Below the pieces are notes generated by a model. It had not been told where the DNA came from. It did not search any database and worked only from the letters and a program-made list of their open reading frames with translations. A stretch of DNA of 64,000 nucleotides. It comes from Thuidium tamariscinum (lineage: Eukaryota > Streptophyta > Bryopsida > Hypnales > Thuidiaceae). Below, in pieces: positions 3,140 through 26,206 of the stretch. The stretch is taken from contig OX344750.2 of assembly GCA_947034885.2 (NCBI GenBank), forward strand, positions 13,696,053 through 13,760,052, in the 5' to 3' direction. Each line of letters starts with the position of its first letter. Position 1 is the stretch's first letter. The translations under genes and the position numbers were made by a program.

Positions 3140-3341
3140 CCACGGTTATAGGAGACACGGTCATGGGTAGCAAAATTTACTTTAAATAGTAATTTTTTGT
3201 TGATTTATGGAAAAAAAAACTGATTGGAAAAAATTCTAGTCCAAATTTCTAAAAAAAAGGCTACTTCATGCTCACCGCTCACAACTTTCCCGCTCACAGC
3301 TCACAGGCTCACCGCTCCACGCTCGAACGCTAGCGTCGTTG
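3140..3341 (+). repeat. Right TIR of the MULE copy A element
   Basis: Lies 335 bp after the transposase stop. Inner end has two CCACGGTTAT/CACGGTCAT motifs, then about 110 bp of AT-rich DNA, then GCTCACAGCTCACAGGCTC repeats, ending CTAGCGTCGTTG. The reverse complement of 6619-6796 has the same order and about 80% identity over the outer 45 bp. Confidence 0.75.
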
Positions 3342-6300
3342 CATTTTGGATGTACCTAACTTATACATATCTAGAATTTTTATGAAGGTCTTTAAGTAGA
3401 AGATTAGGATCTAAAACTACTCAGATTTTCATTAGAAGTAGAATAACCAAATTTGGAAGGGAGGTGGGGCCAATATAGGAGGAGATGGAGCAAACTTTAA
3501 ATATTTTGCAAAGATGTCATATTTAGGCTCTTTTTCCCACGTGACACCATGAAGATCTTATTCAAACATGAAATCCATACCATTAAAAAAGATAATTTTG
3601 GGACGGAGGGAGTAGTTATTTTCATCAAGGATCTTTGATATTTCAATCAAACCTACCTCTTAAAGATAGCTCTGAATATAATTTTAAGGGATCAATATTT
3701 GAAGACTTTTACTACAACATATGAAAAAAAATGTGTTTTAAATATCAAACATTTTTTATCTATGTTAAAAATGTCTTTTTCTATGACCTAAACCTCATTT
3801 TATGATGTAAAACCATTTTCCAAAGAATTTTTGACTTTAGCCAATAAAACCTTCAAAAATTTGACACTCTCACCTTTTGAATTGGGATAAGGTGGATACA
3901 CCCAAAATTGCGCAGTGCCTTAAGAGCGCACCCTAAAATGGATTGTGAATGTATTCCAAGTGGAGAGTGAGTGTGAATGGCATTTTCAAGTGGTATTGCT
4001 GCACTTATACTATAATTAAGGTCATAGAAAGGTACCTCATAAAAAAAGATCAAGTGACGGTTGGACTATTAGAAAAACAAACAAACTACTAAATTAGAAG
4101 AAAAAAAACTATTTATGGATACTTAACTATAATTTCCAAGAAGAGATTGGTTGTATTAAAGTGTTTTCAGGCATCCATTACTTTTCCGACTTGGAAAATG
4201 TAATGATAGCCGCTTTTGTTTCTCTTTTGACACTTTGCAAGGGGGGCCATAGGTTCATAACTGGTCTTTTATAGTGTAACCTATTAGCTAATTTAGTTAC
4301 CCTACTTCGAGAACTTCATACCCCTATTGTGTTCTAGGATTTGTTGATTTTAGAAAGGTCATTATTCATTTGCTCCTTTCTAGCTCATGTCTTTTGTTTT
4401 CTCTACAACTTACTCAATATTTAGCCTTCAAATAACTCACAGTCCTAAAAGTGGCGCTTTTAGGTGTATCCACCTTAAACTAGATCTTTAGGTGGATAGA
4501 TCCAAAAATTGCACCATATCCAAAACCACCATCATCATTGTGTATACTTGCAAAGTGAAACATGCTTGTATACAAAAACAAAAACAAAAACAAAAAACAT
4601 TTTAAAATCCTCTACCCCAAAGAATATTATCCCTTCATTGTATCTTTTGCATACGGTACCCAAATGTCCTGTTGTTTTATGCATTGGAGCCTCCTTTCAC
4701 TTACCAATAAGAAAACAATATAAGCATTGGATAGTTTGGGTAGTCTAATAATAGTAACTACCTTAGACACAGTCTCTGAGGTTCCCACCTTTAGTTAGAC
4801 TGACTGAAGCACAACATACCCGCCAATTAGGTTTTGGGAGAAAGGCAATGGAACTTGGTGGACCCAAAAGGACAGCTGAACGTTGTGAGACACGAGGAGG
4901 AGAATGGATTGACACTTGGCAGACGAACATGCGAATGTGGTGGGACGGACCCCTTTTCTGCTTGCCACCTCAGCCAACCACACTGGCAGATTCCTCACTG
5001 CTATATGAACTTTTTGCTATACGGTGGAAACATCCAAAACCGTCCAAATAAGGAATTCAGCATAGTTGGAGGTAGCTTTTAAAAATAATAATATTACTCT
5101 AGTATTCATGAGTGAAAATCACGAATATTAAAAAATAATAGATTTTTTGGGTGTCATATGTAATTTCTATTAGTTTTCAAAGTGCTAGCTTCCAGGACCA
5201 CTGAAATTGTTCAATAGATGCCTTTAAATTTGGACGTTGCTAAAATCAACATTGAGCCAATTAGATTTGGTATGTGTCCTTAACATGCATCATCAAGTTA
5301 GAGTCAAGCATGTAGCAAACACATTAATTACAATCTAGGGATGGTTTTGGATGAATCTAGGGTCCAATGCAAGGTACATATCGGTATTGGGTGTTTCCTC
5401 CTTAGTTTTGTATTTGTGCAAGTTGAATTAAATAGTTACAGAATACTATGAGGATGATCACCTATTTCCGATCACTTAACCAATTCAGCCTATCTATACT
5501 ATGGAGAATATTCAGGAAAAAAAATTCTCATGTAGAAAAATAAGATAGAAGTACCCATTCCCAACTAGGGACCCGTACCCCACCATGCAGAGTGTAGCTA
5601 TTTCCAACCAAAGCTTGGTATGCATTTTTTCCTCCATTTCAAGGTTGGGCCCAATAAGATCATTACACATGTCCCAAAGTAGTGAGTAAGAAAGTAAGAA
5701 GTAGTAAATAGGAAAGTACTTAATCTATGATTTGAATTGGAAGAGTTTAGACATTGGCTATTAGTCCGAACAACTTTTTGGCTTCCAAAAATCATAGTAA
5801 TTTCAATTTTGGGATTAAAATTCTGAAAAATTTGCAACCCTTATATTTCCTATCTTCCTACTTGGCAAATATTTCACTTGCCTCATACTGCTTATAGTTT
5901 GCTTGAAAATTGCTTTAGTGATTGACTATAGGTACTTCTACTTTAGATTTCAGACTAATTTTTTAATTTTAAAAAAATTCCTCAAACACAAATTTATCAT
6001 GATTTTTTTTTGGTGAAGATTATATTTTTCTCATTCTTAATATGTAAACAAACCTATTTCCAACCATAGGATGGTTACAAAACCAATACAAGGCTTTCAA
6101 TGTATACATTGTAATAATTGTATGCTTTCAATGTACAACCTTATGAACATTATTGTTGCTCTTGTAGGTCTTGCAGAAGGTGAGTTGTCACCTACACTTT
6201 AAATTAGTTGATTAAAAATCAAACAATCTAAGTTGTGAGAAGGAGATGGTTGTTGAAAATGGGTGATTTTCTTTTACTACATAGTAAAGTAGGGTGCTCT

Positions 6301-6608: not shown

Positions 6609-6618
6609 TTCTCCATTT
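6609..6618. repeat. Left 10-bp target-site duplication
   Basis: TTCTCCATTT sits directly outside the left TIR and is repeated exactly at 26197-26206 outside the right TIR. Mutator-superfamily insertions characteristically duplicate about 9-11 bp. Confidence 0.8.
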
Positions 6619-6796
6619 CAACGATGCTAGCGCGCAAGCTTGGAGCCGTGAGCTTGTGAGCTGCGAGTATGAAAACCTTATTATTTTATTTTTGGGGGAT
6701 TTTAGGGTATAGTTCGTAACTTTTTTCCATTGTTTTATTTTTAAAACTATTTGTAGTAAGAATTGTGACCTATGACCGTGGATCCTATAACCGTGG
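6619..6796. repeat. Left TIR of the large element
   Basis: The reverse complement reads CCACGGTTATAGGATCCACGG, AT-rich spacer, then GCTCACAAGCTCACGGCTCC and an outer CTAGCATCGTTG. It matches 3140-3341 and, in order and motifs, 26083-26196. Confidence 0.75.
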
Positions 6797-8854
6797 ATTG
6801 TGTACTTTGACTAAACAAAAAACATTAGTTATAGTCATCATGGATTTTGTCACCACAAGCAAGTACCCTCCAAGTTGTTGGCTCAAAATATTGTTGAAGA
6901 CGAGCTTCATGGCTTTCATTAATTTTTCAAAAAAATTGGGGATATTAGAGGGGTCAATGTTGGATTCATTGGTCTACAAAAGAATATATAAAGTAATCAA
7001 AATTTCTTTAGCACTCCAACTACAGTCTAAATGGAATTTGATTTAAGTAATCAAGATATTTGAATATAGTAGTGATAAAATAATAGGAGGGACTATACTA
7101 GAAGCATGACAAAGGTCTCATGCTTCCGTCACATATGAAGAGCTCATAGAGTTATATGAAGCACTAAAGTTGGAACAATTGAAGACAGAAAATGGAACTC
7201 TAAATCTTCAAGTGCTGAATCAACCACATTATGCAATGTGGAGGATGTTCACTCCAGATTTAAAACACTGTGACTATGCATAGCACTAGAGTCATGCTCC
7301 ACGAGGCCCAGAAACAAAACACTAATGGAAAGGACCCCTCATTATTAAAAAAATCAATGTAAAAAAGACCATGGACGTAGATAAGCACTAGAATTTAATT
7401 ACCCCTTTGAGGAGATAAATGAACCTCGATGTTTGCCTAGATTCTTGTCCAATTTTAAAAAAAATTGTGCATGCAATTTGATAAAAAATTTTAAGGAAAA
7501 TTTGTTTCCTCTCAATATACAATTTTTAATTGAGAGTAGCAAGTTCAAAGACATAATGTCTTGTTTGGCAAAAACATGCACATACTACTAGTAGTAATTG
7601 TATTAGTTTGACCAAGTCTTACAAAATAGACAACAAGGAAAGGAACTTCTCATTAAAATGAATATGGGGCTTCCACATGTTCTTGCACAAAAGAAAAAGG
7701 CAGATCATGGTTTTCAAAAATAAAGTTGCTATCCTTTGTAGTCGAGGGCAGAGGAAAGTTGAAGTGTACATATCCCATATGGGTAGGAACTCCCCGAGAA
7801 CGGGAATATAAGAGGATATGGAGTCCTTGGATATACAACCTCAAGATTAGAGTGAGCTGACTATTACACATCAGTGTAGTAGACAGTTCAATTTCTTCCA
7901 CGGGTTTTGAACTGAAATGTACAATTTCTTTTTCACTTTAGGGATGAAATATTAGAGTTATATACTTTTTGCTTCTCATTTTTGATCTGTGAAGGACAAG
8001 TTTTAACAACAGAAAATGGATTAAAAATAAGTACAAATGCAATTATTGGTTGGCTTAGCTCAATGCATATAATTTGTTAAATCTAGAAGCATGTATTTTT
8101 TAGACAGAATGTCTTATTAGGTGGACATTTGTATTCAATAGTATAAATTTTCTAATGATATTTCTACATGTTACAAAAATATAAACAAGTACAAAATGAA
8201 TCCTACAAAATCTATTGTAATAAAATAATATATTTTGAATGCAATGGAATAAATGGAGACAAAAGAAAACAACAAAAGGGTGAAAGACAGGAGATCAAAA
8301 ATGGTCAAGTCAAAGGTAAACACTACAAAGAACAAATGGACTTATAGTCTTACATAAATTCTACACAAAGGAAAAGAAAAATAGAAATGGGTTGAAAAAT
8401 GAAATATTTCTTGTTTGGAACCTAGTCAAAGAATTACTAAATTGATTCCTAAACATCCTATGTCAATTGGATTTTCCAAAGTGCATAATTAGGGAAGGAC
8501 ATCTAGGCTACAAAGCAACAATTCAAGACCTATTACATTAGCAAAACTAAGGCCCTTCAAGTCATTGCAGAAGCAAAAGCCAAAATGCAATTCTGTATAG
8601 AAGTTCTAAAAATACAATTGATGGCTACATTTTCTTTTTACAAATAACAATGTTGTTCATCATTCAAGTCAAACATTCATAATTTCATATAGAATATGCA
8701 TGTACTTGATATGAAAAATAGAATTGCATTACCATAATAAATACTTTGAAGTAAGTAAATATTCTTCTCAATACCTATAGTTCGATATCTGTACCTACCC
8801 TAAATTCAAAATTTGAGTAATGGAATTAAAATTCCTACTAATCTGTATATGAGC
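6797..8854. other. Left-arm spacer with a coding-like relic
   Basis: No transposase sequence here; copy A has only 335 bp at the matching place, so much of this is probably inserted. 7129-7272 on the + strand has a 48-codon open stretch with coding-like composition (EELIELYEALKLEQLK, then MWRMFTPDLKHCD) ending in a stop. 7653-7901 on the - strand has an 82-codon open frame. Neither is recognised. Confidence 0.35.
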
Positions 8855-11800
8855 TTACTCTGATATTGTGATAAGACCAGCTCGAACAAGAAGAACCTTC
8901 AACTCATTAAAGCTGAAACTAGGAGCATGGATGAAGAAGTCTTTTTGATGATCCATTTTGCAGAAGTACCTGAACAAGTAGTACAAGTGCTTGCAGTTCA
9001 CATATTGTGCACGCCCTCCAATTGCAGAGATAGCCATGTTCACAAAGTCAGGACAAGTGCAAGCAGAAAAGATACCAATAGTAATCTTGTAGACATTGGT
9101 TTTGTGCTCCGGGCCAGTCTCCAAAGAAACAATTGCTCCTAATCCTAGCAAGGGAAGCAAAGTCACGTTGATAATTTGTCCTTTGATATTCCTCACGCTT
9201 TCCCACTTATTGCGATGCTTAATCGTTGGAGCATTTGTGCTTCGCTGAATAGTCTTGTTGTTTCTCACCGTAGGAAATACATCTGGATTTGTAGGTGGCC
9301 CTTCATCATACAGAACGCTCTCAAATACCTTGGACATTTGAAAAAGACGGTGTGGAGACAATGAAGGTTGATCTTGTAAGCGGAAGCCGGCATCTTGTAG
9401 AGATAGTGTCTCTTCTCTACTAAGATTTGTGCCTGCTAGTATAGGCCATGTATCCGGCACATCAGGCCAATCAATCCCCCATTTACGCTTTGTACTTTTC
9501 ACACACCGCTCAATATCGTCTGAGCAAAACCAGAAGTCTACTACTACCTCTCGACGGCTCCCATACTCTTTCTTTCTTCCACGGTAGGTGGCAGCTGGAG
9601 TTCCCCTCTATCCTCTAGCAATTTTGGTTGTACACTTGATATTTGAACCCTTTTGTTGAGCGTGACACTTGGCACTCGATTTATGATTAATTCTTGCAAT
9701 GTGCCACTTGCTTGTGTCACAGTCACTTTCAAAAGCACAACTGACATGAATAGTATCATTTGATGGCGCCAGTGCCTGCATAATAGGGGAAGGTCCCAAT
9801 TCAACACTTGTGGACCTCGTACGCACGCGGGGATGAGAAAAGTTTACTTTATCCGGGCGATGTGAATCCCCTTCATTACCGATGGGAATGTCAAGCTTCC
9901 TTTTTATGCTCCCAAATACTTCTTCTCCTTCCAAATGAGGTATGCGAGTCCCCATATCTTTAGTTCCAGGTAATGTATTAAGAGCCTCTGCAATCTTCTT
10001 TGGGTCTCCACTTCGTCTAGCAGCCCTTAATTTCAATTCTCCCTTTGATGGTCTAGAGTCAGAGGCATGTCCATTCAAAAATGCTTTGTAATTTGTCATT
10101 TGCATCCATGCACGAATACTGTTGTCGCAAGTGGCATCAAATAAAGTGTTGCCACGATTGCTGGAGATTTGAAGCCATTTATTGTGCACAGTCTCAGATA
10201 AATTGCAAGAAGGCATCTCAGCTAACTCCTCCAAAGATAAGTCCTCCAAAACCACACAATCAAATTATGTGAAGAATTTTGAAAACTAAAAGACCACTTC
10301 ATTGCATTGCAATTCAGAATTTGATTTTAATCAAAAATTATAGTGCCAAAATTGTATGATGAAAAGATATACAAACCTTACAAAGTTTGAGTGAATTTAT
10401 CTTCTTCATCAAAACTACTATTCCTTATATAAATATGGAATTCACTAACAAGAAGTGTAGTACTATAATACTGTAGTAATATTTTGAATATCATAAGGAC
10501 TTTCAAGGAAATCAAATCAACTTACCAATTGCATAAAGCCTCCCCACTGTCTATAGCGAAAGTGCCAAAATGCCAACCAATGCTCTAAGTGATGAACTGC
10601 ATCCAAAGTTGCAGCTTTGGATGATAGCCACCATGAACGAATGGCAAGGAAACGTGTCTCTGCCTCCTCCATAGTTTTGGAATCTTTGTACTGCTTACAC
10701 AAAAGAGTGTGTTGATGCTGTAGGTCTTCTTTAATGTACTTTTGGGTGTGTTTTTGCAGAGACGTGCTCTAATGCAACAAGCAAGTTCTTTCTCGGTTCT
10801 CCATTTCCCCTTCAGGTGACCCACTTCCATAGACAATTCGAACTGCCCTCCAATTGGCCATGGCACTATCCGCCATAAAACCTTTAAAATTAGAGGAACC
10901 CAATCCATAGCGACCCATGACTGCATTTAAAGAACGCCAAAATTGTACCTGAATTTCGGTGTCTTCTAATTGTATATCACATGTTGCAATCGTCATTACT
11001 CTTTTATAATTTGTGTCATAAACGTGGCATGCCATGGTTGTCCACTCCTTCACACGCTTCACGTGATCGAACATCATCCATGCGTTTGCTAAATCTCCTC
11101 CAGATTGCATGCGATTGACTATGTCTACACCACTGCCTGGTCCCTCAGTCAACATCTTAAACAAATAAACCTTCTCCTTGCCCTGTCCGGGAAACACACT
11201 GTCATGTATATACTCAAACCTAGAGTTCTTCTTCATTGTCATAATGTGATCCAGGACCCCTCCACGATTGTTTGTGCGAAAAGATGAAATCACATTCCGA
11301 ATACTTGGGTTGCTTAAATATTGAAACCTATCCATTACCTCTTGTAATTCTTCACCTTCTAACATTTTCTTCGTCCCCTCTCCATGATGAAAAAGATAGT
11401 TTGACAGGAATTTTTTGTTAGCTGAAAGTGCTATCGCAGAGTTAGTGGTTGTTGGTGTTTTGGCGACTTCTTCTACTATGAGGGTAGAAATTTCCGTAGC
11501 AGAGTCTCTATACAAACCCTTTGCAATAGGATGTGCATGATGCCTAAAATGAATAGCAGCCCTAGTCATATTAGGATTTTCACCGTAACAATAGTATATC
11601 CGAGTAGAGCACTGGTTTAGGCAAATTGGAGGATTTTTGCACACTTTGCAGACAAGAGTAGAATCTTTAGGCGGCTTCTCTCCAGTAGTAAAAGGAAAGT
11701 TTGTACACCCACTCCACTCTGTTTCGTTCTGACTCCCAGTTCTCCTCAAGAAATCACAAGAAGGATTTGCACAAGCAAGATGACCGGCGCAGTATGACTT

Positions 11801-11968
11801 ACGAAATTTCAAGTGGTCAGAGTTGTGAATGTTTGTCGTGACCAACTTGCACCATGGATGGCCGTTGTAACGCTTGTCCATGCCCTCCAAGTTGCGAGCT
11901 GCTGATGAAGCATTTGAGCGAAGAGGAGGCAATTCAAATATGATATCACCATCAAAAGTCGCGGGCAA
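8855..11968 (-). pseudogene. MULE transposase, copy B (two nonsense codons)
   Basis: Transposase of the 19.6 kb element. Exon 1 runs 11968-10526 (frame is open to about 12030, but no ATG is visible, so an upstream exon is likely); exon 2 runs 10243-8855, both phase 0, with donor TTG|GTAAGT. N-terminal about 160 residues: Cys/His-rich, zinc-finger-like (YCAGHLACANPSCDF, CKVCKNPPICLNQC, HFRHHAHP), resembling FLYWCH/GCM-type transposase heads. Core: HVYD, FMADSA, CLLH and EAETRFLAIRSWW. C-terminus: SWIM finger CTCPDF...NCKH. Stops: TAG at 10769-10771 directly after CLLH (copy A has Trp), and TAG at 9608-9610. Frame is kept otherwise, so decay is recent. It is oriented away from the methyltransferase gene and towards the left TIR. 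Confidence 0.87.
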
Positions 11969-12049
11969 GTGTGAGCCCTTGAGATGGCACTCAGGACTCT
12001 GGGTCCATTTTTCACGATTAAATAGCGAAAATTATCCAAAATATTCAAG

Positions 12050-14290
12050 AAAAAGACATAAAAAGAGTATTGAGGGAGTTTTGGTGTCAGTCTATGCCAA
12101 AATGGTAGAAAACCAACTTAGAAGGTGGAAAATTCCTAAACCTAGAAATTTGAATCATTCTAAGTCTCCAAAGCAAGTTTATGTGAAGAATTAGTAATTC
12201 CGAGAGAAATAAGGAATCGAGAGTTAGTCAGTCCTAGTACTTGTCTGTGCAAAGTCAACCTTTTAAGGATGCACACGACATACTAACTATGCTAAAAGAG
12301 TCTACCACGAGCCTAGAAGACTTACCAGGACTTAAGTTCAATTTTGGAACAAATTGAATTTAAAAGTAAAACCACCACAATGAGTTTGGAGAATTCGAAC
12401 TTCACGAGATAAAAGATGGAGGATTGGAGATTGAAGACTACAGAGAGGTGTTCCAAGGGTAGGAGCATGCCAGGAGCGAACAAGAATCAAACAATTGTCC
12501 AAGATTCCCGTGCATCGGGAATTAAATTGTCCAATTGGGCAAATTAATTCCAAATTACTAAAATTAGAAAGGTGCAAGGTTGCATGGGACTTACACCAAG
12601 AATCTAGGAGTGCCCTAGATGTTACCCAATTTATTTCGGATTTTTCCGAAATTCCACGTTGACTCCATGGGAAGTCAACCGCACATAGAAATGTTCGTAA
12701 ATTCATAGAAATTACGTATGATGCGGTAAAATCTCACTAAAAATTAGGATAGGTTTTTGTGTGCTCGGTCAAGTTTGAAGACATTCCGACATTCCCAACT
12801 ACCAAAACCGGCATCAACATTGAATTTCACTAGAAGTTACAAGTTGGCAGCGGGTTGACCGACGTATCAGGAGCGAATGATGTCCGATTGTCGCAAATAA
12901 GGAGTCATTCCTTGCTCTCACAGACATTCCTAACAACCCTGGCCTAACAGATTCATCGAAATACGCAAATCCTAAAAGTTAGATTTTTGACTTTTAATTG
13001 GAGTTACCGTAATTCCAATTTGGGTGCGCAAATGGCCTAGGAGTGAGGGGTAAGGGGTCCCTTAGGCTAATTGGGGTCTTTTGAAGACAATGGCGCAGAC
13101 GGTTTTCCATTTCGAGTTGTTCCCTAAAAGATAGAGAGGGTCAGCTCTTAGTTTGACTTTTTAATCGTTAATTGCGGTTAATTAGAAGTGATTTTGGAAA
13201 TATCTCTTGGAAAATCAAAGATTGGATTTGGTCAAGATCTCTTTCTTGCGTAAAAAGCCATCTTTGGGCTAAAGAAAGACAATTTTCAAAATGACTTTTG
13301 GTTAACTTGCAAAATATCTACGTAAATTAGGGTTAATTCCAAAATAGTTTGGGTTAAGATCTTGGATTTGATTTGGCCAAGATTTCGTTTGCCAAGTGGG
13401 GATGTTTTTAGAAATATCCACCATTAAACAACTAATATTTTGGAATTACATTAAGGTAGTTTAGGATAGAAAGTAATAAAATATTTTCACTGGCAATTAT
13501 CGAGAGGGGCCCGGCCGCGGGTATATAAGGGCCCCCCTCGAGGTTGCCAGTACCCTTTTCTTTTGCATACCGACAGTTTGTTATATTACTTGTGCTACCG
13601 ACGTGGTCGGAGCACTGCTTGGACCAAAATTCTTGGCCAAGTCTTGTTGTGTTTATTGGGACTTTGGAGGCCTAGGGCCCCTTCAAAAGATCCGCCTTTT
13701 CCCTCTGCCATTAGGCCAACCTTAACTTCTCTTCTAAGCCTTCTTTTCGGAAACTTGAAGAATTTGGTGCCAAAGTTCGGTTTAAACACTGTCATGTGTA
13801 TCTCCTTTGGTCTCAAATTTTAAAGTACTAAGTTGTGGACATTCTAAAATATTTTCCAGTGGAAGTTCGGTTAAACACTGTCATGTGTACCTCCTTCTGC
13901 GCCTAAATACTTGGAATACTAAAGTAATTTCGTGACAACCAAGGATAACCCTACGCAACAAACTGCACTTAAGTGCATTTGATCCCAGGGTGCTATTCCT
14001 TACCTCTCAGGAAATTGGATAACTCACTAAACACATCCTTGACCACAAGTGTACTTGAATAGGAATAATTGGGAAAAAACTCAAACCTATAAAACCCACA
14101 CCCAAACCCATCAAGTGTACTCTTTTTAAGTGAAACTTCACAATTGATGGCTTTTGGTTGACAAGGACCCTTGCAAACCAAACTAGCACTTAGAGGCTTG
14201 GCCACCACCTCATCATTTTAAATGACTCTTTAGTTTAGTATCCAAAATTTCCTTTTCTCAAAATCCCAAAAATCAGTTTAGTGTTCAAAT
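12050..14290 (+). promoter_or_regulatory. Promoter or LTR-like region with TATA box
   Basis: No reverse transcriptase or other protein signal. TATATAA at 13522-13528 sits between two arms of a GC-rich inverted repeat (CGAGAGGGGCCC at 13501 and GGGCCCCCCTCGAG at about 13528-13541). Downstream, a 33-bp segment (GTTCGGTTTAAACACTGTCA) occurs twice, at 13775-13807 and 13865-13896. The look is that of a U3-R region of a solo LTR, or a promoter of the element. Ends with TG/CA and a target duplication were not located, so class is unresolved. Confidence 0.4.
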
Positions 14291-14470
14291 TCCAGTCCAG
14301 GAGGGCCAGACCGGCGGAGCAAGGCAGCAGCAGACTCCCCCCCGGGTCAATCAGAGGCCGCCACGCAGGCAGGTGACGGGGCGGGGTCCGCCCAACGGGG
14401 GAGCGCCACGGGGCCGAGCCAGGAGCGGAGCCAGGCCAGGCCAGGCCAAGTCCAGGGACCGGCCAAGGAA
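14290..14470. other. GC-rich island
   Basis: About 180 bp of very GC-rich DNA in an AT-rich surrounding, with CCAGG-type short repeats and a following A/C-rich tract (AAAACAAAAAAC, then ACACACACACC). Possible CpG island or 5' UTR; no open frame I would trust. Confidence 0.35.
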
Positions 14471-15045
14471 AAACAAAAAACAAAAAACAAACCACACAAC
14501 AAGAACACACACACCATAGCTAACACACACACCCACAACAAAGCAAGTAAGTGCTCCTTACACCAACTTGGGTTGGAAAAGTGATATTACAAAAATTGGG
14601 TTTTAATCGAAAATCAAAAGATGCGGAATTAGAACTCCTCTACCACTTTTGATTTTACATTAAAAATCCAATCTTTGCAACTTTGACACTCCATCCTAGA
14701 AGCTCTATTCACTCAAAACTCCATAACCAACTTCTTCACTAAACATTGCGAAAAACTAAGTGCAAGGTCGAGAAGGAAGAAAGGAATTAAGGGGAGAAGG
14801 ATTACGTGAGAGATAACCACGTGAGGGAATTTAGCATTAAAAAATCATTTCTTAAAAGAATCTCACTATTGAATAAGGTGCTATATTCTTTGTGTTTGAC
14901 CTTTGGCATTTAAAAACTCATTGTTTAAGAATCTCACTATTGAATTGGCTTTTATTCTTGGGGTATGTTCTACATTCTTTGGTAATTAGTTATTAATTAG
15001 ATTCTTACACGGCTTGGATTTTGTTGGTTTTGTTTTATTAGGCCT

Positions 15046-15375
15046 AATAAGCCAAAAAAGAAACAAACAAATTGACAACTAATTTCTTTAGAATTAACGC
15101 AAATTCAAAAATTAATTAGATTTGAAAAGATTTGATGATAGTTTTTGATTAAAATATTCTAATAAGCCAAAAAAGAAACAAACAAATTGACAACCAATTT
15201 CTTTAGAATTAACGCAAATTCAAAAATTAATTAGATTTGAAAAGATTTGATGATAGTTTTTGATTAAAATATTCTAATAAGCCAAAAAGGAAACAAACAA
15301 ATTGACAACCAATTTCTTCGGAATTAAAATAATTTCAAAAATTAATTGATTTTGAAAAGATTTGAAGGGAAATTC
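15046..15375. repeat. 115-bp tandem repeat, about 2.8 copies
   Basis: Units begin at 15046, 15161 and 15276 with AATAAGCCAAAAARGAAAC and are nearly identical. No coding content. Confidence 0.85.
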
Positions 15376-15665
15376 CATCCAAATTAATTTAATTCAATTG
15401 GAATTCGGTGGAATTTTATAATATCAATGGAAAACTAAAATAAAAACAAAGAACAACAAATAGTTAACTAATAGAATTCCGTTGATTTCTTTAGAATAGG
15501 ACATTAACCAACTAGGTAGACTAATTTAATTGTAGTATTTCCTAATTACCGGGAACCTAGGAATTAAAAGAATTATGCAATTGAATTCACGCTACATAAC
15601 CTTTAATTTCTTTTAAAACAGGACAAAATTAATTGACCAACAACATGAGAATTATTATGGATTAG

Positions 15666-15761
15666 ATGGAGAGCCGGGATGATTTCGATGACAAGGTTGT
15701 AGGAGAATATTTGCACATGATGATGTTTGACGACGGGACCATGGAGATTTACGCAGAGGAG
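15666..15761 (+). CDS. Candidate first exon of an unknown gene
   Basis: ATG followed by 32 open codons ending at a good donor (GAG|GTAAAT). The peptide is acidic and methionine-rich (MESRDDFDDKVVGEYL, then FDDGTMEIYAEE). I do not recognise it. It may belong with the + strand exons at 17.3-17.76 kb (all phase 0), but a - strand open frame lies between them and no connecting exon was found. Confidence 0.35.
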
Positions 15762-16311
15762 GTAAATCGCTCACATTTGATTTTCATTCTCATTGTTTTA
15801 CTGTTAAGTTTCTTTTTACCAAATGCTTGGAATTAGCTTTAGACAATATCATTTGATAGAATAGAGTAGAGTAGGATCGCTTGGTTGAATTTCATAATAG
15901 AATAGATAAAATCATAACCACAAACTAGATTAAAAAACACTTAAAAGACGTGACTAAAAGAGTTCATTGCTTGAAAGGCTTTTTTTTAATACCCAATTAG
16001 AAAGAAAACTCAATTAGACACAGGACCCGTGTGAAAAACTCTTAGCTCGAGGGTGGAGTTAGGAGCGCTCACAGCAAGTACTTTACTTGTTGCACCGTAA
16101 CGGAATCTATATCCAATGTAGACAGCTCGTTCCGAGAACGATGCACATTTGCAAGTCTTCTCAAGCAAGTAAGTATGCTGACACTATCAATTACTCCTAT
16201 AGAAACTTGAAGTTGGATGGCTGTTGATTTCTCTGAACTTTCAAACGAACAGGCTTCAATAGGTTTTTGTAATGACCTGACACCTTCAGGAAAAAGCTTG
16301 GGTGGAAAGGA

Positions 16312-16809
16312 CTACGTATGAGGTGACAATTGAGAAGGGCCCTTATCCGAATCACTAGATAATTCCACAATAGGATCTAGGATTTCTACTTTCACTGAAT
16401 GCACCAAGGACTTCCTTCCCAAAGTAGTAGGAACCTCTCTAACCGAATTAGGTGAGTTCGTTTGAGTAAGAAATGGCTTATCCACTGTAGAAGCTTCGGA
16501 GTGACGACTGGGTATTTCTGTAGATGCACAAAGCAAAGACAATGGAAGACCGTAGGCTTTGTAGTTTCCAATTGGAAGATACCAACAACAGCCATCATCT
16601 TCAACTGTCTTCTCAATTGGTACAAATTGAAGCAAGGAACCACATTCAGACTTCAATTCCTCTTCAATGTAGATGGAGGACTCTACAAACTTAAATCGAA
16701 CGTGAAGAAGATGACTACTCACTCTTGCAACTTTACCATCTCGAATAGGAAAATGCACAGGAAATTCATGGCCATCTCCGCGTACACACACCATGGCAAG
16801 ACTTGCCAT
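16312..16809 (-). CDS. Unknown 165-aa protein
   Basis: Single open frame with a true ATG (16809-16807) and a stop at 16312-16314. Composition is protein-like, unlike the + strand open frame that overlaps it. N-terminal half is globular-looking (VRGDGHEFPVHFPIRDGK, then VARVSSHLLHVRFKF, DDGCCWYLPIGNYKAYGLPL). C-terminal third is Ser/Thr/Pro-rich and ends in an acidic Ser-Asp patch (ELSSDSDKGPSQ). No signal peptide, membrane segment or known motif recognised. It lies inside the large element between transposase and methyltransferase, so it may be a third element protein or a captured fragment. A multi-exon gene on this strand is possible. Confidence 0.45.
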   Translation of the reverse strand: MASLAMVCVRGDGHEFPVHFPIRDGKVARVSSHLLHVRFKFVESSIYIEEELKSECGSLLQFVPIEKTVEDDGCCWYLPIGNYKAYGLPLSLLCASTEIPSRHSEASTVDKPFLTQTNSPNSVREVPTTLGRKSLVHSVKVEILDPIVELSSDSDKGPSQLSPHT

Positions 16810-17307
16810 GGTAGGAACAATACTAACATGAGCAAAGAAAGATCAATCTCCAGAATACAAAACAAGCACGTAGGTAAGATATTGACAAGTTCAAAATCAA
16901 AAGCTAAAGCATACATAAAACAATTAAAATACCGTTGTCAATTCCAATTGAACAAGCATTTAAGATTAAGCCGTCTTTAAATTGGAATAGGAGCAACTAC
17001 AAGTACAAAGAATAATGGGCAGCCATAGTAAGATAATAAAGGAAAATTCCTATAATTATAAAGGTAGGCAAAAAATTAAGTAGGCCAAGTGAAGTACTTC
17101 CTAATCAAATAATGGACATTAATGTTATTGTCAGACGTTTTGCCTCATCAAGTCTACAGTACATAAGCAAATTTGAAAACCTTAGCCGTCTTTTCATGAA
17201 GTGCCAGTAAAGTGCAAACCTAGAAGAGTATCAAAGACAAGGAGCGTCTTAGTTCTATCACTTATAGTTGCATCCTAGAGGAAGAGTGTTATCGGGGTTG
17301 CTATTTC

Positions 17308-17756
17308 ATGTATGGAAGGGCGAGTTGTCTTGTAGTAGAGGATAGGAAGCGCAGAAGAAAGCACAAGCCACTCTTATTTTCATCTCCAAAGGCACTTAGA
17401 AGATCGAGAATGAGGGGAAAGAAAGTGGTTTCAAAAAGTAGTCAAATTTCGGAGTTGAGGATTCGGCCACTTCGTTTCGGAGAAAGCATCGTGGAGGTGA
17501 CTGAGGTGACAGGAAATATGGAACCAATCCCGGAAGCAGCAGAAGCAATGAGTGGAGTCCCACAGCCTATAGAAGAGGACCTGCAAGAGGTAAAGATCTT
17601 TGCATATTATTATTTAAGTTTTAGTTAGTACTAGCTAGATGATGAAGTTTGATTTTGTTTTCATGCATCATTTATTTTAACCCCTGTATAATATAGGCTA
17701 TCTTGATGTTATACAAAAATAAGCTTATTGACGAAGAGACAGAGTATTTCTTGTAG
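17308..17756 (+). CDS. Small two-exon unknown gene or 3' part of a gene
   Basis: Exon 17308-17589 (ATG, 94 codons, donor GAG|GTAAAG) and exon 17697-17756 (acceptor ATATAG, 19 codons, TAG at 17754). Both are phase 0. N-terminus is strongly basic (DRKRRRKHKP, RRSRMRGKK), suitable for nuclear localisation or DNA binding; the second half is acidic (EPIPEAAEAM, EEDLQE). The end reads AILMLYKNKLIDEETEYFL. Not recognised. An alternative start is the internal Met at about 17410. Position inside the large element suggests an accessory protein, which is inference only. Confidence 0.42.
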
Positions 17757-17842
17757 AGGTTAGTTGACGTTCTTTAGATTAGTAGTGAAAATTCTCTTTT
17801 GCTTCGTAGTAGCCTAAAAATTTGTTGATCAAATAACTTAAA

Positions 17843-18031
17843 GAAAAAAGGACAAATCATGAAAGAGCTATGGGTAACGACTTTGGAGAGATTGTAGGGA
17901 AGGACACCGTAATCGAATGGAAAAGAAGTGGATAGTCTACTTCTCCACTTCTCTTCCATTTGATTACGATGTCCTTTACCACAATCTCTCCAAAGTCGTT
18001 ACCCACAGCTCTTTCATGATTTGTCCTTTCT
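17843..18031. mobile_element. Foldback hairpin element
   Basis: A nearly complete inverted repeat of about 189 bp. The left arm starts AAGGACAAATCATGAAAGAG and the right arm ends CTCTTTCATGATTTGTCCTT, with few mismatches; the apex is around GTGGATAGTCTACTTC. Typical foldback MITE, inserted inside the large element. A transcript would form a long hairpin. Confidence 0.75.
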
Positions 18032-18959
18032 TTATCATATTTGTAGGTGATTTGTAAATAACTCGGGAAATTCTGGAAGATGTCAAAAAATTTATAATTT
18101 TTTTCAATGAATTTTTCAAATTAAAAAAAATTATTCTTAAGAAAAATTGGAAACAAGACTTCATAATTTTATGAAAAAAGAGAATCAATCAAAAATTAGG
18201 AGTGTTCTTAGAGTATTGAAAACCCTAAACCATCTATTTGTTGGATTACTTATCAAACTGAAATGTGATAATATTTTGACATGAACTTGTTGAAGATGCA
18301 CTTAATAAGAAAATGGGGTTGGTTCCCCACAACCATAACCCTTGAATATCTTTGAATTAGAAGAATTCTCCCGCCCCTAGCTTCACTAACAGTTGCCCTT
18401 CGCCTCGAAATGGCCGCCCTTTGCCCCGAGACTGCCGCGACCGCCAAACCAGGCTGACCTCACACTCTCGCTGCGCTGCAGCGACGAATCCTCTCGCCTA
18501 ACGTTTCAGTACCCTTGCTTTGCTTGCCAAGCCTTCGCATAAGGATTTTGAGCTCTCATTTCTGTCTTGCTCCTCTTGCTTGTGAAGTGCGCGATGGATT
18601 CAAGGCGTGCAACTAGGAGCGCCAGTAAACGTGGACAAGAGTCAGTTGGAGAATCAAGCATTCGATGAGGCAAGCAGAAGACGCTTCCAACTGAGGTGAG
18701 TTTTGAAATTCGGAATTCAGCAAGTCGATTTTCAGATTTGCTTTGATCTTGGACACGCATCTGCTCCTCGTAGAGGAGAACCAGATTCATGTTGCGTTCT
18801 CCCATTCTAAGCGGCATGAGGAGACGCTCTTCCTGCATTTTTCCGAAGAGGTCAGAGAGGGGCTTCTCTTGGAATTGTCCACTCGCGCAATGCATAGAGG
18901 AGAGGCCAGAAGCATGAAACAATCTGCAGATTCAAGAAAAAAAATTCACCCCGGCCCCC

Positions 18960-20130
18960 TTGCGGTACCGCAACGGGGGTTGGGGAAGGCTAAGTCGTGC
19001 AGGTTTGTCCACTGTGCTTCGGCGCCTGGTCCCTGTGCTTCGGCGTGGTCCCTGTTCGTCGGCGCCTAGTCCCTCTACGTCGGCGCTTGGTCCCCAAGCC
19101 TCGGTAGATTCAGCATCTTCGTCGACTTTCATCATCCCCGGGGCGTCGGCGCTTCGTCTTCAGACGAACTTCATGGCTCCGTTCTGGTCCCCTTGCGGTA
19201 CCGCAAGGCCAGTTCGGGAAGCTGAAGTTTTTAAAAATCAGGGCGCAGAGATTTGCACTCCATCTCCCTCGGCGGATTCCAGCTTCAGCGAGGTCTCTTG
19301 TCCCTCAGGGCAGATATTTTGGAGCAGGCTTTTCTTGGTCGCATCGCCCGTTGGCTCTCTCTTATTCCTTCTTGCGGTACCACAAGGAGGCTTGAGAGAT
19401 CTGATTTCTCATTTTAGCTTACAATTTCAGCCATGGAGGAGCTGGATTTGTCTACTTGAGCTTTCATTTTTTAAGTTTCGATGCCAAGGATTCAGTTTAG
19501 CTCCCCCAGCGCTATCAGTTCAGCTCCCCCCACTCTTTAAATTCAGTGTGATTTAGTTTTTATGTAGGAATTTTGAAATTCCAGTGCACCCCTCTTCCTC
19601 TTGCGGTACCGCAAGAGGGATTGGGAGCACTGAAATCCTTGCTTCTGTAAGGAGGTAAGGCCTGGCTAGGTTGGATCGTTGGGCAAGGTTTAAGCTGCAA
19701 GTGAATCGGCTTGTTCGATTGATGCTTTAGGTTGGGACTGATAAAGAGGAGCAATTCAAATCTGAGAGAGCATCTTCATGGAAAGCGGAGGAGATTGAAT
19801 ACTTGACCTGTAAAAGAATTTCTAGAATGTTGGCGTTGCTCCTCTGTGTTTGGCTGAAGTAGATTCACAATGAAAATAAAACCAATGGTTTGGATTCGGA
19901 ATTAGCCCGCGTTATGGTTGTGACTAGTGTGTCGTGGTTCTTGGTTATTGTACAAGCTTACTCTCATTTAAGCATCTTGTCCTGCGCTTCTTGGATCTGT
20001 GACTTAGATCGGGAATTCTTGGCCACTATTTATGCCAGTGTATTGCTCAATAAAACAGGGATTGAACACTTTGAGGCATTCCGTTTTAGGGTTTTAGTCA
20101 CATGTTAATTCCCTTGCAGTACCACAATGG
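18960..20130. repeat. Five copies of a TTGCGGTACCGCAA palindrome
   Basis: Copies at 18960-18973, 19191-19208 (CCTTGCGGTACCGCAAGG), 19371-19386, 19597-19618 (perfect 22-bp palindrome) and 20112-20130 (decayed). Spacing is irregular (about 180-510 bp). Each is followed by a loosely conserved purine-rich tract of the type GGGNTTGGGNAGG. All lie in intron 1 of the methyltransferase gene. None was seen elsewhere in the window. Confidence 0.85.
19016..19104. repeat. About 21-bp imperfect tandem repeat, four units
   Basis: Units follow the pattern TCGGCGCCTGGTCCCTGTGCT with point changes and one short unit. GC-rich, between palindrome copies 1 and 2 in intron 1. Confidence 0.7.
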
Positions 20131-23100
20131 GGTTAGGATGATTCTTAATTCATCATAGTTTTGTGAGATTTTCTGTCTTGCTTACTTACCTTTGCTCTAG
20201 GATTTATTATTTTTCAAATTCAAAGGATTATTGGTTTTAATTTTGACCTTGCACCATTTATTATGGACCACTTTCTTTCCATGTAATGATGACCCCTAAA
20301 ACATTACACTTAATTATTGTGGATTGTTTTCAAATGCATTGCTTGTAACTTGGATACTTTTTTCATTCTCAACAAATTACAAATTCTTGATAAATTTTGT
20401 TATTGGATTTATATTCCCTATTAATTGGATTTGAAATTTTGTTGGGTCTTGTTTTTCTTCCTATATTTACCAAAAAATTTCAATGAATAATCCCATAAAT
20501 AAACCCTTGTCTTCGCAGAATGATCCACAAACACCTATGGATTCTGAGGGCCAAAACCTTGAAGACAATATTCCGGTGAGAATTTTTATATTATTTTGTT
20601 CATGTTTATGAAATCAATTGCTTTAGGGTGTCACTAACCTTTTTGTTTTTGCTTCCAGGATTCTAGAGAGATGGATTCTCAATTTCACAATCCTATAAGT
20701 ATTACAGAAAATCCTCAGCCAGGGGAGTCGGTAAGCTTAAATGCATATTGAATAGAGTTCATTGATTTTTAGATTTTTAGAAATGAGTGGAAAGTGAGTG
20801 GAATGGATCCAAAGGAGCCATACCATAATATTGATAAAGTACTATAGCAATCATTACCTCTAGAAGCATAGTCATGAGTAAACCTCAATGTATTGCTCCA
20901 ATATTAGTATAGTTAGAGGCTACGTTATTGACAATTTATGATCAATAGCCTTTTTGTTATTGCAATTTCTTTACTACCTTTTAGTATTGATGTATCAAAT
21001 ATCATGTAAGTTCTTGTAAATCAATCAATTTTTTCCTATTTTAATTTGCTTTTGGCTCTAATTGAGTTGATGTAATGTTATTCAGGAACTAGGTACTCCA
21101 AGTTCTACACAGAGAGACATGTCTAAGGATACCACACCCCAATCAGAACAAGAAACCCAACCAGAGATTGGTGACAATAACAGTGAGGAGTATCAAGAGG
21201 TGGTTGGTGGTGAACAAGTTCTGGAGGAAAGCGTTGATGAAGATGATCTTCGTCGCAGGCACAAGGTTGATTCAAATTCTATAATAAACAGCATGCGGTT
21301 TAAACCTATTGCCCTTTCCCGAATGACCATTCCACTATGTCTCCTTTTTCCGATGCCCATCGTGAGGCCTACCTTGACATGTGATTTGACAAAATTGGAT
21401 CAAGAGTATGTTCACAACTATCGTGAAGGATCTCCTGTTTTTTACATATCTACCACAAATGTAGAGGGACAATCACATTTTTTATCATTTGATGAGCGCG
21501 CAAGCTTCAGTCCACTTTGGAAGGAGGAGGTCCTTAAGTTTGAAGAAAAGCTTGACCGTACACCCGACCTCCATTGCCTCAAGAACCTAAAGTTCTTTAT
21601 ATGTGATGGTAACCACCGTCACATTGCGTGGATGTCCCACATTGATTCCAAACACCCCAACGATCCAGATTGGCATGTTCAAGTGGATTGTATTTTGCTG
21701 GAGACAAAAGGACGGAATGGGGCTCTCATGCAAGCAATGCATGATATTAATAAGTAAGCCATTCTTTGAATTTTTTGATGCTTTTTATGTGATTTTTGCG
21801 AATTAGGCTGACATCTTCATTGCAGGCATACGGAAGGCTCACATGTCAAAACAAAGTTGATCCACACCTTATATCAAGTGAGAAGGTATGGTGAGATGCC
21901 ACTCAAAGAGTTCAAGGAATTGCTCACAGAGTCTGATTTTGGGAAGTGCACCCAAAATTCTAAGAAAACATGGTATTCCATGACCTTAGAGGTCTTTACC
22001 TCATTTTCTCCTTTTGATTTTGACCTCTGAATTACCCTTCTATTAATATTTTTAACCTATAATTTTGATCTCTGATTTTGGCTATAATTTTGACCTTTTC
22101 TAATGATGTTTTGGGCTTCATATTTTTTTAGTACGAAATTGCAGAGGCAGCTGACATAGCTGCGAGGGTGTATAATGAATGCACTCCGGAGGGGGAGGCC
22201 ACTGATAGTGGAGTTGTAGCTGCAATGAGGAAAGGGGCAAAAGACAGAACGTTACATCTATATTTCAAGATGGCAAAGATGGTTACCGTAGCTAATCCAA
22301 CCCTTGGTTCTGAGTGGTTTGAAGAGGTAATAGTTTGGATGTTAATCTTCTCTACATTTCATACTCTTTTATTATTTTGCAAATATTGATTAATTTTTTT
22401 TTCATGTCTAGATTGAAAGGCATTGGAGTTTGAATGCTAAGCCCGAGATGACCCTCGATAAGCTCCAACTTATAGCAACTTCAAGTGCAGATGCTGTCTA
22501 CAAAGTGAAATGGTTAAACTAGTGGAATCTTTCCAAACATTCAAGGGAGGCAAGAAAGTTTCCAGCCAAGCCAATGAATGATGACAAACTCACGGCTTTT
22601 CTCCACAAGGCAGTGTGGTGGGCAGGGGTAAGTGGTTTGGTTAAAGTTACAGTACCTTAATTTTTAACAAGTGGTTGCATAAATGAAGTACTGAATTTCC
22701 TCTTGATTTTGTGCAGATTAAAGCCTCTGTGGTTTCAGAGGTAGACCTAATATCTACTCGGGACAATCTAACAATTGACATGACAAGCCCTTTGGAGCCT
22801 TTGACTGTGCAAGACTACATTGAAGAATGGCGCATGCAGATTTGGGACCAAGCCTTTGGAGATGAGCTTGGTGGGAAGAAACCTTTCAAAAAAGGGGACT
22901 CTTTTTCAAAGTTTCTTGAAGCCGACAACATAATTAAATGTGTTGTTTTTAGGTATGAAATCATTGAATGATTTATCACTTATTATTTTACATTCCTCTA
23001 ATTATTTGTGCCTCTAATTATCTTTGTATTGGATTCAAGTACTTCAAATTGGAGCTGTACAACAAAAAAGCCATCTCCAAGCATGATTTTCCCCCTTTCA

Positions 23101-25649
23101 TGAACGATTGGATAGACCGTTGGTCTCCAAAATATATGTTCTCTCCATATCAAATGAAGACCTACACCTTTGTACACCTTCAAGGTTGTGGATGGTATTT
23201 GGAATGCGATCCTTCATTTACACCTCCATCTGAGGTTGCATATTGGCAAAGTCTTCAATCTCTTGCACCTTTTGAGGTTTTTACGGATGAATATGCCGGT
23301 TTGGAGGAAGGTGCCAAGGAAGAAGCAATTCGCAAGTGACTTGAAGAGGACCAGAAGAAAATGGAGAAACAGGCCAAAGATACGGAGAAGGCAGCTGCCC
23401 GAGAAGAAGAAAGGAAGAAGAAGGCTACTGCAAAAGAGACTTAGAAGAAGGGCAAGCAAAAGAAGTCAACTCCTACTGTAGATGCCCCTGCCTCATCAGT
23501 GGACAACACATCAGTTTTGGAGGTGCAACCTTTGACTGGTATGGTTGTGGCATCACATTATGTTCAACTTACGGAAGTGCAAACTCGTGCACCTATGCAA
23601 AGATCGGTGGATTCGAATGTTGCAGATGTGGCCGAACTCATTTTGAATACAAATGTGGATTTGGTTCTTGGTGGCATGACTGGTGACCCTCCAACAGACT
23701 ACAGCCGCATTTTGACATTCTGTGAAAAGGTATAGCCAGTTGTATTAGTTATTTTATTCCTTTTTTTTGTGTATGCCTCTCTTCGATTATCACTAATCAA
23801 TTTTTGTGTTTTTTTCCACAGAATGCATCAAAAAAGAAAAGGTCCTATCGTGGGCAGGTGGATAAACACCCCGACTTTGACCTTATCTTAGTAGATATGC
23901 CAGAGGGTCTTCCAGTTATTGGAGTAAGTGACCTAGAATCTATTATTCCTTCCTAGAATGCCTTATGAGACTCCTAGTTACAGCCTTTATTCGACTTTGC
24001 AGATATGCATCTTCATGACGACGGCGCCCTCATTGTCATTCATCCTCAAAGCTTAGAAGCTAAGAAGACATTGTTACAGCATACGAATGCATATTCCTTT
24101 GAAAAGAAGCTCGATTGGTGGGGGGTGAATCAATTATATTTAACAAATCCTGCCAACTTGAGAGGAACGGTGAGAATTGAACTATTGAAGGCCTTTTTTA
24201 TTCTAGAGGCAAAAATAAGAAGTGATTGAATCATAGTTTGAATTGATTGAGTCATAGTTTAATTGAACTGATTGAATTATACTCTGATTGAATTGGTGAA
24301 TTACAGTTTCGTTGAATGATTTAATTATTTTTTCTAATAACTTTTGTGATGCAGACTAAACGATTTGGGATTACTTTATTGGTGAGGAAGATTCCTTCTC
24401 TTCCAAACTCCAAGTTTGCATTCCAACATATTCCTGACCTTGTATCACGTGGGGTTGATGTGGAGAGAGATGATGTTCTCTACAACTATGTTTATGAGAA
24501 TGATTTGATTATGAATGGTGATCGCCCTTGGCGTGGAGCTCAACAGAAAAGCTCGTTGCTTTTTAATATGTTGATAGAATCGTGCACACTACTTGGTGAC
24601 ATTGTTTTGGATGCCACTGCAAGTACAGGTGATTTTTTGGAACCCTTTCATTTTAATTTGTTTTTTTAATATTTCAGTCCTTTTTTAAGTCACATTTTTT
24701 AGGCTACTTCCTAAGAACTTTTGTTTTTCAGGTGCCTCTATCCGTGCTTGTCGAACTTCTGGTCGCCATATTGTTGCTATTGAAGAGGACAAGGCATTAT
24801 TTGAAAATGTCCTTAAGCCTCTTATTCGTGCGCCGGTAGCGATTCCAACTCCTGCAATATCAGTAGCAGAAGAGATTGTTGACCTCGATGATGACGTTGG
24901 TATTGTGGAACCAATCTAGAAGAAATCCAGATTCAGTACGTAAGTCAACCTTGCACTTTTCAATTCTTTTTGTTAATAATGCCTTTTTTATATTTGACTA
25001 AATTCTGTTGTTTATTTCAGATTTGTGAGCGGTGAAGTTGAATCCATTGTTCCTTTCTTCCAAAGGCCTGACTTTTTTGCGAGTCCTGAGAAGTCTTTTG
25101 AGTTGCCTATTTATGCTAAAAAAATGGCTACAGCATTTGAAGTGTATGGCGGTACTAGTACTTCTCATTATGGACAAGTGCACCCTCGTGCCTTGGATTT
25201 CTTGGATGTTGAAGCCGCTTTTTCAAGTGGAGAGTCTGCCTCAGATTCTTCTTATACTGCAGAATGAAGACATCTCTAGTTTTCTAAGTATGAGATATCT
25301 TAATCTTATAGTACCTTCTATATGCGTATTTTATAGTAATTACTACATTACTATGTTTTCAATCTTTTTTATAGTGATCATGGCATTGCTATATTTTCCA
25401 TGTTTTTTATAGTGATCACCACTTTGCTATATTCTACTCAGTTTTGGACATTCTTGTATGTCATTTTCTTAAATTGCCATTATGTGTTTTGAATCTGCTT
25501 GTTTCTCATTTTATTTCCTCAGTTTCCACATCTACATTATTTTGGTTCTTAGTCAAATGATATTTTATTTTTGGTATAGCAATTCCCTCTAATTTTGACC
25601 ACTTTAATATCCTACATTTAATTTTTATTGTCACCCTTCTTCATTTTAT

Positions 25650-26020
25650 TAATGTGACTTTTAATATTGCTTTCCATAGGGATTTTGAATTTGAAAACAC
25701 AATGCCCCTTCTTAGTATTATAATCAATTGGATATTACAAGGAAAATATTGTTCATGCAAAATTTGAAACCCTAGACCCTAATAATGAAGTTTGGGGTTT
25801 TAAAAACAAATTGCTATAGAATAAAAGCGTTAAACAACATTCAATGTTTTATATCATCTTTCATTGTTTTAATAATGTGGCTATAATTGTATCTTTCTAC
25901 TGGCATTTTAAATTTAAAAACTCAATGCCCCTTCTTAGTATTATAATCAATTAGGCATTAGAAGGAAAACATTGACTACTACACAAAATTTGAAAACAAG
26001 AAGAATTACAATGAAGTTTG
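25650..26020. repeat. Diverged direct repeat downstream of the methyltransferase gene
   Basis: CAATGCCCCTTCTTAGTATT and the following AT-rich sequence occur at about 25700 and again at about 25923, around 220-240 bp apart. This lies between the gene's stop and the right TIR. Confidence 0.7.
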
Positions 26021-26082
26021 AGGTTTAAGAAACAGTGTCAAAGAATAATCAAATTAACCTAAAACAAAATATATTTTTCCAA

Positions 26083-26196
26083 CCACGGTCATGGGTACAT
26101 CCACGGTCATAGAACCTTCATCATTTTTTTTCAAAAAAATTTCATGCTCACAGGCTCATAGGCTCACGCTCATAGGCTCGCCTACTAGCAACCTTG
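26083..26196. repeat. Right TIR of the large element
   Basis: CCACGGTCATGGGTACATCC with a second CCACGGTCAT, a short AT-rich spacer, then GGCTCACGCTCATAGGCTCG and the outer CTAGCAACCTTG. Same order as 3140-3341. It is shorter because the AT-rich spacer is reduced. Confidence 0.72.
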
Positions 26197-26206
26197 TTCT
26201 CCATTT
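26197..26206. repeat. Right 10-bp target-site duplication
   Basis: TTCTCCATTT, identical to 6609-6618. Confidence 0.8.

Follow-up and report, generated by a model that had tools for sequence, protein, structure and literature searches.

We analysed a 64-kb window of the Thuidium tamariscinum genome (64,000 nucleotides of contig OX344750.2; positions without a contig name refer to this window) and found at 6619-26196 a DNA transposon that spans 19.6 kb between its target-site duplications. It is almost certainly a decayed copy of a giant cut-and-paste element with two genes and 10-bp, Mutator-like duplications. On balance, we favor an explanation that joins to this structure a self-recognition system, in which an accessory protein encoded by the second gene would read a repeated palindromic dyad. 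Taken on its own, this functional part, with anti-silencing or self-marking as the putative outcome, is tentative. The duplicated sequence, TTCTCCATTT, is found at 6609-6618 and 26197-26206, and each copy abuts the outer edge of one inverted terminus, just as the first-pass annotation of the window had proposed. It occurs four times in the 64-kb window, where 0.58 copies are expected, and the remaining two copies, one at 10797 and one in minus-strand orientation at 23359, are located inside coding sequence of the element. When the termini are aligned from the outside inward, the left tip (CAACGATGCTAGCG..) and the right tip (CAAGGTTGCTAGTAG..) are identical in 39 of 56 columns, and beyond the tips the longer parts of the termini have only their architecture in common. 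The "identical architecture" claimed earlier is thus found in the tips and in the GAGC-rich part, though not in the sense of identity at every base.

The joined flanks of the element (600 bases, with the junction at 300) match two other places straight across the junction, C2:13204422-13204789 at 87% over query positions 1-369 and C9:18497888-18498231 at 74% over positions 14-368; past query position 369, the right flank is a different, dispersed repeat. In both of these paralogous empty sites the 19.6 kb are absent and the target is present once (exactly in the first, 9 of 10 bases in the second). The unit has therefore been inserted here, duplicating 10 bp of target sequence. We next compared it with other terminus pairs in the genome. 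A search with 40 scored candidates for each terminus returned 40 matches for the right and 46 for the left one, and nine further places carry both termini in matching orientation no more than 120 kb apart. Both ends were read in all nine: six have an exact 10-bp duplication (GTGCCTCACA, TACCTATTTA, ACACCTAACA, AAGTCATTAG, CTTAATTTGG and TAGTAATTAT), two match in 9 of 10 bases, and one, the span p5, has none. A matching terminus had also been noted behind a transposase copy at the left edge of the window (copy A). It ends at 3341, its partner is located at C2:13683021, and CATTTTGGAT flanks both, which shows that copy A forms one end of another element, 16.4 kb long. In total, a 10-bp duplication is present at 10 of 11 terminus pairs (eight exact, two with one mismatch; window element and copy A included). 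The left ends of three members of a distant subfamily (L090, L092 and L094), whose positions were guessed by distance, were not found there. Three pairs that share a 10-bp duplication are 64-97 kb apart (C2:13389531-13486229, C2:13545934-13616290 and C5:7139496-7203377; two exact, one 9 of 10), and some members of the family have thus grown enormously, presumably through nested insertions.

A close relative, p2 (C1:34881972-34898856, 16,885 bp, duplication TACCTATTTA), aligns colinearly with the window over 7323-11959, 16074-17634 and 20507-26193. The segment at 11970-16073 is a later insertion, because it is absent from p2, has TG..CA ends, is flanked by a GCAAG duplication and cuts the transposase; it probably represents a solo long terminal repeat (LTR). 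The native element is therefore about 15.5 kb long. The first-pass annotation, which mentions neither this insertion nor the palindrome cluster at 18956-20131, held that everything between the termini had moved as one unit. This is borne out for the transposon itself by its other copies and the two empty sites, but not for the 4.1-kb insert, which came later. The window copy is dead, since its transposase contains three premature stops (16314, 10771 and 9610) and its second gene seven. Two smaller repeats were seen within the element: a 115-bp unit in three tandem copies inside the insertion (15044-15388), and a hairpin with 89-bp arms (91% complementary), resembling a miniature inverted-repeat transposable element, at 17844-18033 in a part not aligned to p2.

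Features of the window element and of copy A
Position	Strand	Feature	Remark
1..3341	+	Terminal part of a further element, 16.4 kb long and from a different subfamily (copy A)	Partner end at C2:13683021
3342..3351	.	Target-site duplication CATTTTGGAT of copy A
6609..6618	.	Left target-site duplication TTCTCCATTT	Also single-copy in two paralogous empty sites: exact in L099, 9/10 in L100
6619..6796	+	Left terminal inverted repeat, transposase side, tip CAACGATGCTAGCG	Genomic relatives found
8855..10264	-	Transposase exon 2, SWIM-like C-terminus, one premature stop (9610-9608)	SWIM match sub-threshold, seen in copy A
10517..11969	-	Transposase exon 1, downstream part with DDE-like region; premature stop 10771-10769	Low-coordinate border approximate
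11970..16073	.	Later 4104-bp insertion (TGTGAG..GCTCACA; 5-bp duplication GCAAG), splits transposase, probably solo LTR	Absent from colinear p2
16074..16842	-	Transposase exon 1, N-terminal part; premature stop 16314-16312
17177..17634	+	Candidate first exon or 5' part of the ParB/methyltransferase gene	Kept in p2; putative exon from open frame and donor site
18956..18977	.	Dyad 1, core TTGCGGTACCGCAA exact
19189..19210	.	Dyad 2, core exact
19368..19389	.	Dyad 3, core with 1 mismatch
19597..19618	.	Dyad 4, core exact	CCTCTTGCGGTACCGCAAGAGG, a perfect 22-bp palindrome
20110..20131	.	Dyad 5, core with 2 mismatches
20483..25267	+	ParB-like/DNA-methyltransferase gene	Exons by eye, from GT-AG borders and comparison with p2; stops 22520, 23337, 23442, 23954, 23966, 23975, 24917
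21086..21753	+	Exon with ParB-like motif CDGNHRxIAW	Motif by eye; no profile confirms a ParB fold
23822..24935	+	Methyltransferase exons	Motif IV DMPEGLP in 23822-24169; motif I DATASTGAS across 24355-24935
26083..26196	-	Right terminal inverted repeat, methyltransferase side
26197..26206	.	Right target-site duplication TTCTCCATTT

In agreement with the first-pass annotation, the left arm carries the transposase on the minus strand (8855-11969 and 16074-16842) and the right arm the ParB/methyltransferase gene on the plus strand (20483-25267), in divergent orientation. This gene pair recurs at other loci. Our genome-wide counts refer to the best-scored first-look candidates (100 of 1618 for the transposase, 150 of 606 for the ParB exon and 150 of 579 for the methyltransferase exon) and are therefore lower bounds. 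A ParB or methyltransferase exon is found within 20 kb of 59 of the 100 listed transposases, compared with a mean of 4.2 and a maximum of 11 for random positions (200 draws); the other 41 have no partner among the listed places. The exon is upstream and divergent in 56 of the 59 paired places, three being arranged otherwise, so that at least 56 of the 100 listed transposase places show the order seen in the window. A third subfamily (C2:794601-806000; L101 and L097), whose transposase is 60% identical to that of the window, keeps the same gene order. A 10.8-kb member at C1:31501372-31512175 contains a methyltransferase exon and four dyads and has no listed transposase or ParB exon; it is likely a non-autonomous deletion derivative. 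The smallest of the 11 large contigs, C11 (17.5 Mb), harbors 20 of the 100 listed transposases and 29 of the 150 listed ParB exons, and we speculate that it is possibly a sex chromosome.

We compared the transposase, which is highly divergent, with known families. The label "MULE" (Mutator-like element), given to the element in the first-pass annotation, found no confirmation at the sequence level: the MULE transposase domain PF10551 matches none of 45 database relatives of the transposase, and all 33 genomic PF10551 matches are more than 90 kb away from any of the 100 listed transposase places. No Pfam family scores above cut-off on the window transposase parts, and a comparison of the transposase with PDB returned nothing significant. 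The 45 relatives show scattered weak Pfam matches, with Transposase_mut (PF00872) in two of them at a best E of 0.034 and three other families also in two. A SWIM zinc finger (PF04434) is detected below cut-off in copy A (E 0.047) and not at all in p2. In a profile-profile comparison with three genomic MULE domains, the second conserved Asp is aligned together with the C..H motif behind it (P 0.027), with a score of 22.3, the best of 20 column shuffles reaching 17.3, which is weak support. We thus call the element Mutator-like for its duplication, which falls within the 9-11 bp of the Mutator/MULE superfamily, and for the profile evidence; membership in the superfamily is unproven. It could alternatively be a cut-and-paste transposon from another superfamily with a coincidental 10-bp duplication, as the PF10551 results would allow. 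We regard this as rather unlikely given the 10-bp duplications, the sub-threshold SWIM-like C-terminus, the alignment with the MULE domains and the presence of Transposase_mut among the weak matches. Four transposase copies with identical scores are spaced about 190-230 kb apart on C6 (25012914, 25218758, 25450996 and 25643202), suggesting a tandem segmental duplication.

The second gene was analysed using a spliced reading of p2 as the query (914 residues, with X at two stops). A database search with this protein identified one protein from the moss Ceratodon purpureus, and a second search returned the same protein and two more. The methyltransferase exons are homologous to DNA methyltransferases: their profile matches the solved chains of DpnA (2.1e-4) and CcrM (4.6e-4) and, among PHROGs, methyltransferase families (best 6.9e-6; the "DNA methyltransferase" family phrog_3008 at 2.5e-5), while PF01555 is reached only below threshold (best 0.0024). 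The CcrM alignment (E 4.6e-4) spans both motif IV and motif I in the permuted, beta-class order. The label ParB is based on the motif CDGNHRxIAW, recognized by eye, and on the literature. DUF1015, which we take to be ParB-like, is found in two of 19 sequences below cut-off (best E 0.048). The ParB exon has no match in PDB, and no relative of this exon or of the transposase turned up in scans of viral contigs.

Between the two genes, a 22-bp dyad, CCCC-TTGCGGTACCGCAA-GRGG, is repeated. With up to two mismatches allowed, the window holds five copies of the core TTGCGGTACCGCAA (0.08 expected), every one of them at 18960-20127, and the corresponding region of p2 contains six exact and two one-mismatch sites. 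The 363-Mb genome holds 58 exact copies, whereas a reversed control has one and base composition predicts 0.45. We placed 50 listed sites of the 58, and three further ones belong to loci L045 and L049. All 50 are in or beside members of the subfamily of the window element, to which the dyads are nearly private: 37 are enclosed in terminus-delimited spans (five of these in p5, the span without a duplication), and 13 are no more than 6.8 kb from a close-subfamily ParB or methyltransferase exon. Such an exon is located within 12 kb of 47 of the 50, and the other three are 31 kb away inside the 97-kb span p9. Wherever there is a ParB exon within 12 kb, the dyad is on its 5' side (43 of 43), and their coordinates group the 50 sites into 12 elements, each of which contains 2-6 of them. 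Seen from the gene, 12 of 15 close-subfamily loci, and none of 15 distant loci, have a dyad with no more than two mismatches in the 1.5 kb preceding the ParB exon.

Conservation extends symmetrically by 4 bp past the 14-base search core, as CCCC and GRGG, with 0.76-1.35 bits in 33 distinct contexts, some of which are homologous copies and hence not independent. The next three positions on each side contain at most 0.22 bits, with scattered values of up to 0.72 further out. In leaders that no longer align with that of p2 (L040, L045, L048, L050 and the window), the dyad is the common sequence besides the part near the first ParB exons; the exception is one 80-bp match of 74% between the window and p2 leaders. 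The leaders of L041, L042, L043, L046 and L052 still align to that of p2 over longer stretches.

These arrangements are consistent with a mechanism in which the ParB-like/methyltransferase protein binds the dyads in the manner of ParB on parS, and would thereby address solely its own transposon family. The protein may then spread along the element or modify its DNA, so that either the promoter region shared by the two genes would be spared silencing or the copies would be marked for the transposase. The methyltransferase domain could mark DNA or may serve as an S-adenosylmethionine-binding partner. A more specific version, in which a eukaryotic transposon tags its own copies against silencing with a ParB-parS-like system whose protein and dyad co-diverge between subfamilies, is somewhat more speculative than dyad reading as such.

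Several observations weigh against self-recognition through the dyads. The window copy is non-functional, and p2 is also damaged: its transposase exon 2 contains a single stop, and its ParB/methyltransferase gene contains two. Among copies that can be aligned, the dyads differ at 10 of 176 positions and their surroundings at 270 of 4282, showing no clear constraint; near-equal rates are as one would expect for dead copies, though they give constraint no support. With up to one mismatch, 109 sites compare with 29 for the control, but the one-mismatch sites contribute only a modest excess (51 vs 28), and the strong excess is therefore confined to exact sites. Five of the 58 exact sites are unplaced. 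The dyad is missing from the 1.5 kb upstream of the ParB exon at three of 15 close and all 15 distant loci, and a search of this interval in the distant subfamilies yielded no alternative repeated dyad. On the protein side, no profile confirms the ParB fold, DUF1015 being the only ParB-like match and below threshold. Motif IV reads D[AMVC]PE[GN]LPV in all seven sequences that cover it (alignment A3) instead of DPPYNL as in CcrM, and the beta-class catalytic motif, [DNS]PP[YFW], is thus not present. Motif IV appears conserved yet non-canonical, and the methyltransferase may be catalytically dead, because D[AMVC]PE replaces DPPY.

We considered two other functions for the dyads. They could be operators or transposition sites for the transposase or for a host factor, with the ParB/methyltransferase protein acting elsewhere, for example by methylating the termini to regulate excision. 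Their location between divergent genes would indeed suit a regulator of either promoter. Palindromes of about 22 bp are, however, the characteristic targets of ParB-type proteins, and the window dyads are 6-12 kb from the element ends. Even so, such a role is possible, though we hold it to be less probable than dyad binding by the accessory protein. It is more doubtful still that the ParB/methyltransferase gene is merely carried along without a function, with the dyads being ancestral remnants passed on within a single subfamily that has amplified recently. The seven stops in the window copy and the two in p2, the mutation of alignable dyads at the rate of their surroundings and the common ancestry of all copies would fit this scenario. 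Against it, subfamilies still have both genes together at an identity to the window of 60-75% for the transposase and about 49% for the ParB exon, the 22-bp dyads are still common to leaders past alignment, and the Ceratodon purpureus homologues are annotated as proteins. Finally, unrelated solo ends with a chance 10-bp match, to which only a solo terminus-like sequence at 27445-27489 and the lack of a duplication in p5 (one of nine additional pairs) would point, can be dismissed in view of the exact duplications, the colinearity with p2 and the empty sites. Of the two outcomes that the first-pass annotation had named as refuting its reading, independent solo termini and no further locus with this gene pair, neither was observed.

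We compared the element with other systems in which transposons or prokaryotes carry related proteins. Algal giant transposons with ParB/methyltransferase genes have already been published, and the relevant passages of that paper propose that such genes bind and modify their own transposon (PMC12477816). As described there, a 21.5-kb giant DNA transposon has a ParB-like and N4C/N6A DNA-methyltransferase gene on the strand opposite its transposase, and most giant families contain nested insertions, both as in the window. The algal element is, however, classed as Sola-1, whereas ours has 10-bp duplications, a transposase without a Pfam match, at least 100 scored transposase places (from 1618 first-look candidates) and moss homologues. 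A near-private dyad cluster is not mentioned in section 5 and the related passages of that paper. In Arabidopsis, according to the pertinent parts of PMC5735166, the accessory protein VANC21 recognizes a motif that is highly enriched in the VANDAL21 family and clusters in non-coding parts, both in introns and upstream, and DNA methylation is lost through the action of VANC. The dyads likewise form an element-private cluster in non-coding sequence, and VANC21 is in this respect a precedent for the proposed mechanism, which would work in a similar way. In contrast, VANC contains DUF1985/DUF287 domains, its motif YAGTATTAY is short and non-palindromic, and those parts mention no methyltransferase (PMC5735166). 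We found no protein relationship to VANC: DUF1985/DUF287 gave no hmmscan match in the window exons, their relatives or the ParB alignment, the middle exons being covered through the Ceratodon relatives only. In bacteria, the ParB relative VirB, whose sites are palindromic, is reported to counteract silencing from DNA sites upstream of promoters.

Fungal transposons of several lineages carry a DNA-modification enzyme as well, probably against silencing, but there it is a TET/JBP dioxygenase rather than a methyltransferase, and the superfamilies named in the abstract exclude Mutator (PMC12730594). The beta-class DNA adenine methyltransferases CcrM and DpnA (PDB 6pbd and 5hfj) share the order of motif IV before motif I, with CcrM alignable over both, and differ from our family in having DPPY for D[AMVC]PE and in lacking its fusion to a ParB-like region. 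Phage proteins join a ParB-CTPase fold to an N6/N4 methyltransferase, as reported in the passages concerned of PMC12704722; these fusions are prokaryotic, whereas the window protein has no significant ParB profile match. The gene combination is thus known, and new, as far as the literature searched shows, are its Mutator-like host element in a moss genome and the near-private dyad cluster. Full-text literature searches yielded no proposed target site for a transposon-borne ParB/methyltransferase, though two primary sources on the algal genes could give one. The dyad core, with 58 copies in 363 Mb and all 50 listed ones in or beside one subfamily, provides a concrete candidate site for binding. 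If such binding is true, a eukaryotic transposon would have reused a bacterial-type partition/modification module to tell self from non-self, and the module might serve as a sequence-specific epigenome tool in plants.

The surroundings of the window element contain further repeats. The sequence at 27445-27489, just outside the element, matches the copy A terminus at 67%. On a larger scale, the flanks are inverted repeats of each other (5020-5325 and 28868-29175, 78%; 5606-5762 and 26827-26984, 73%), and the window element therefore probably resides inside an older, larger inverted-repeat element.

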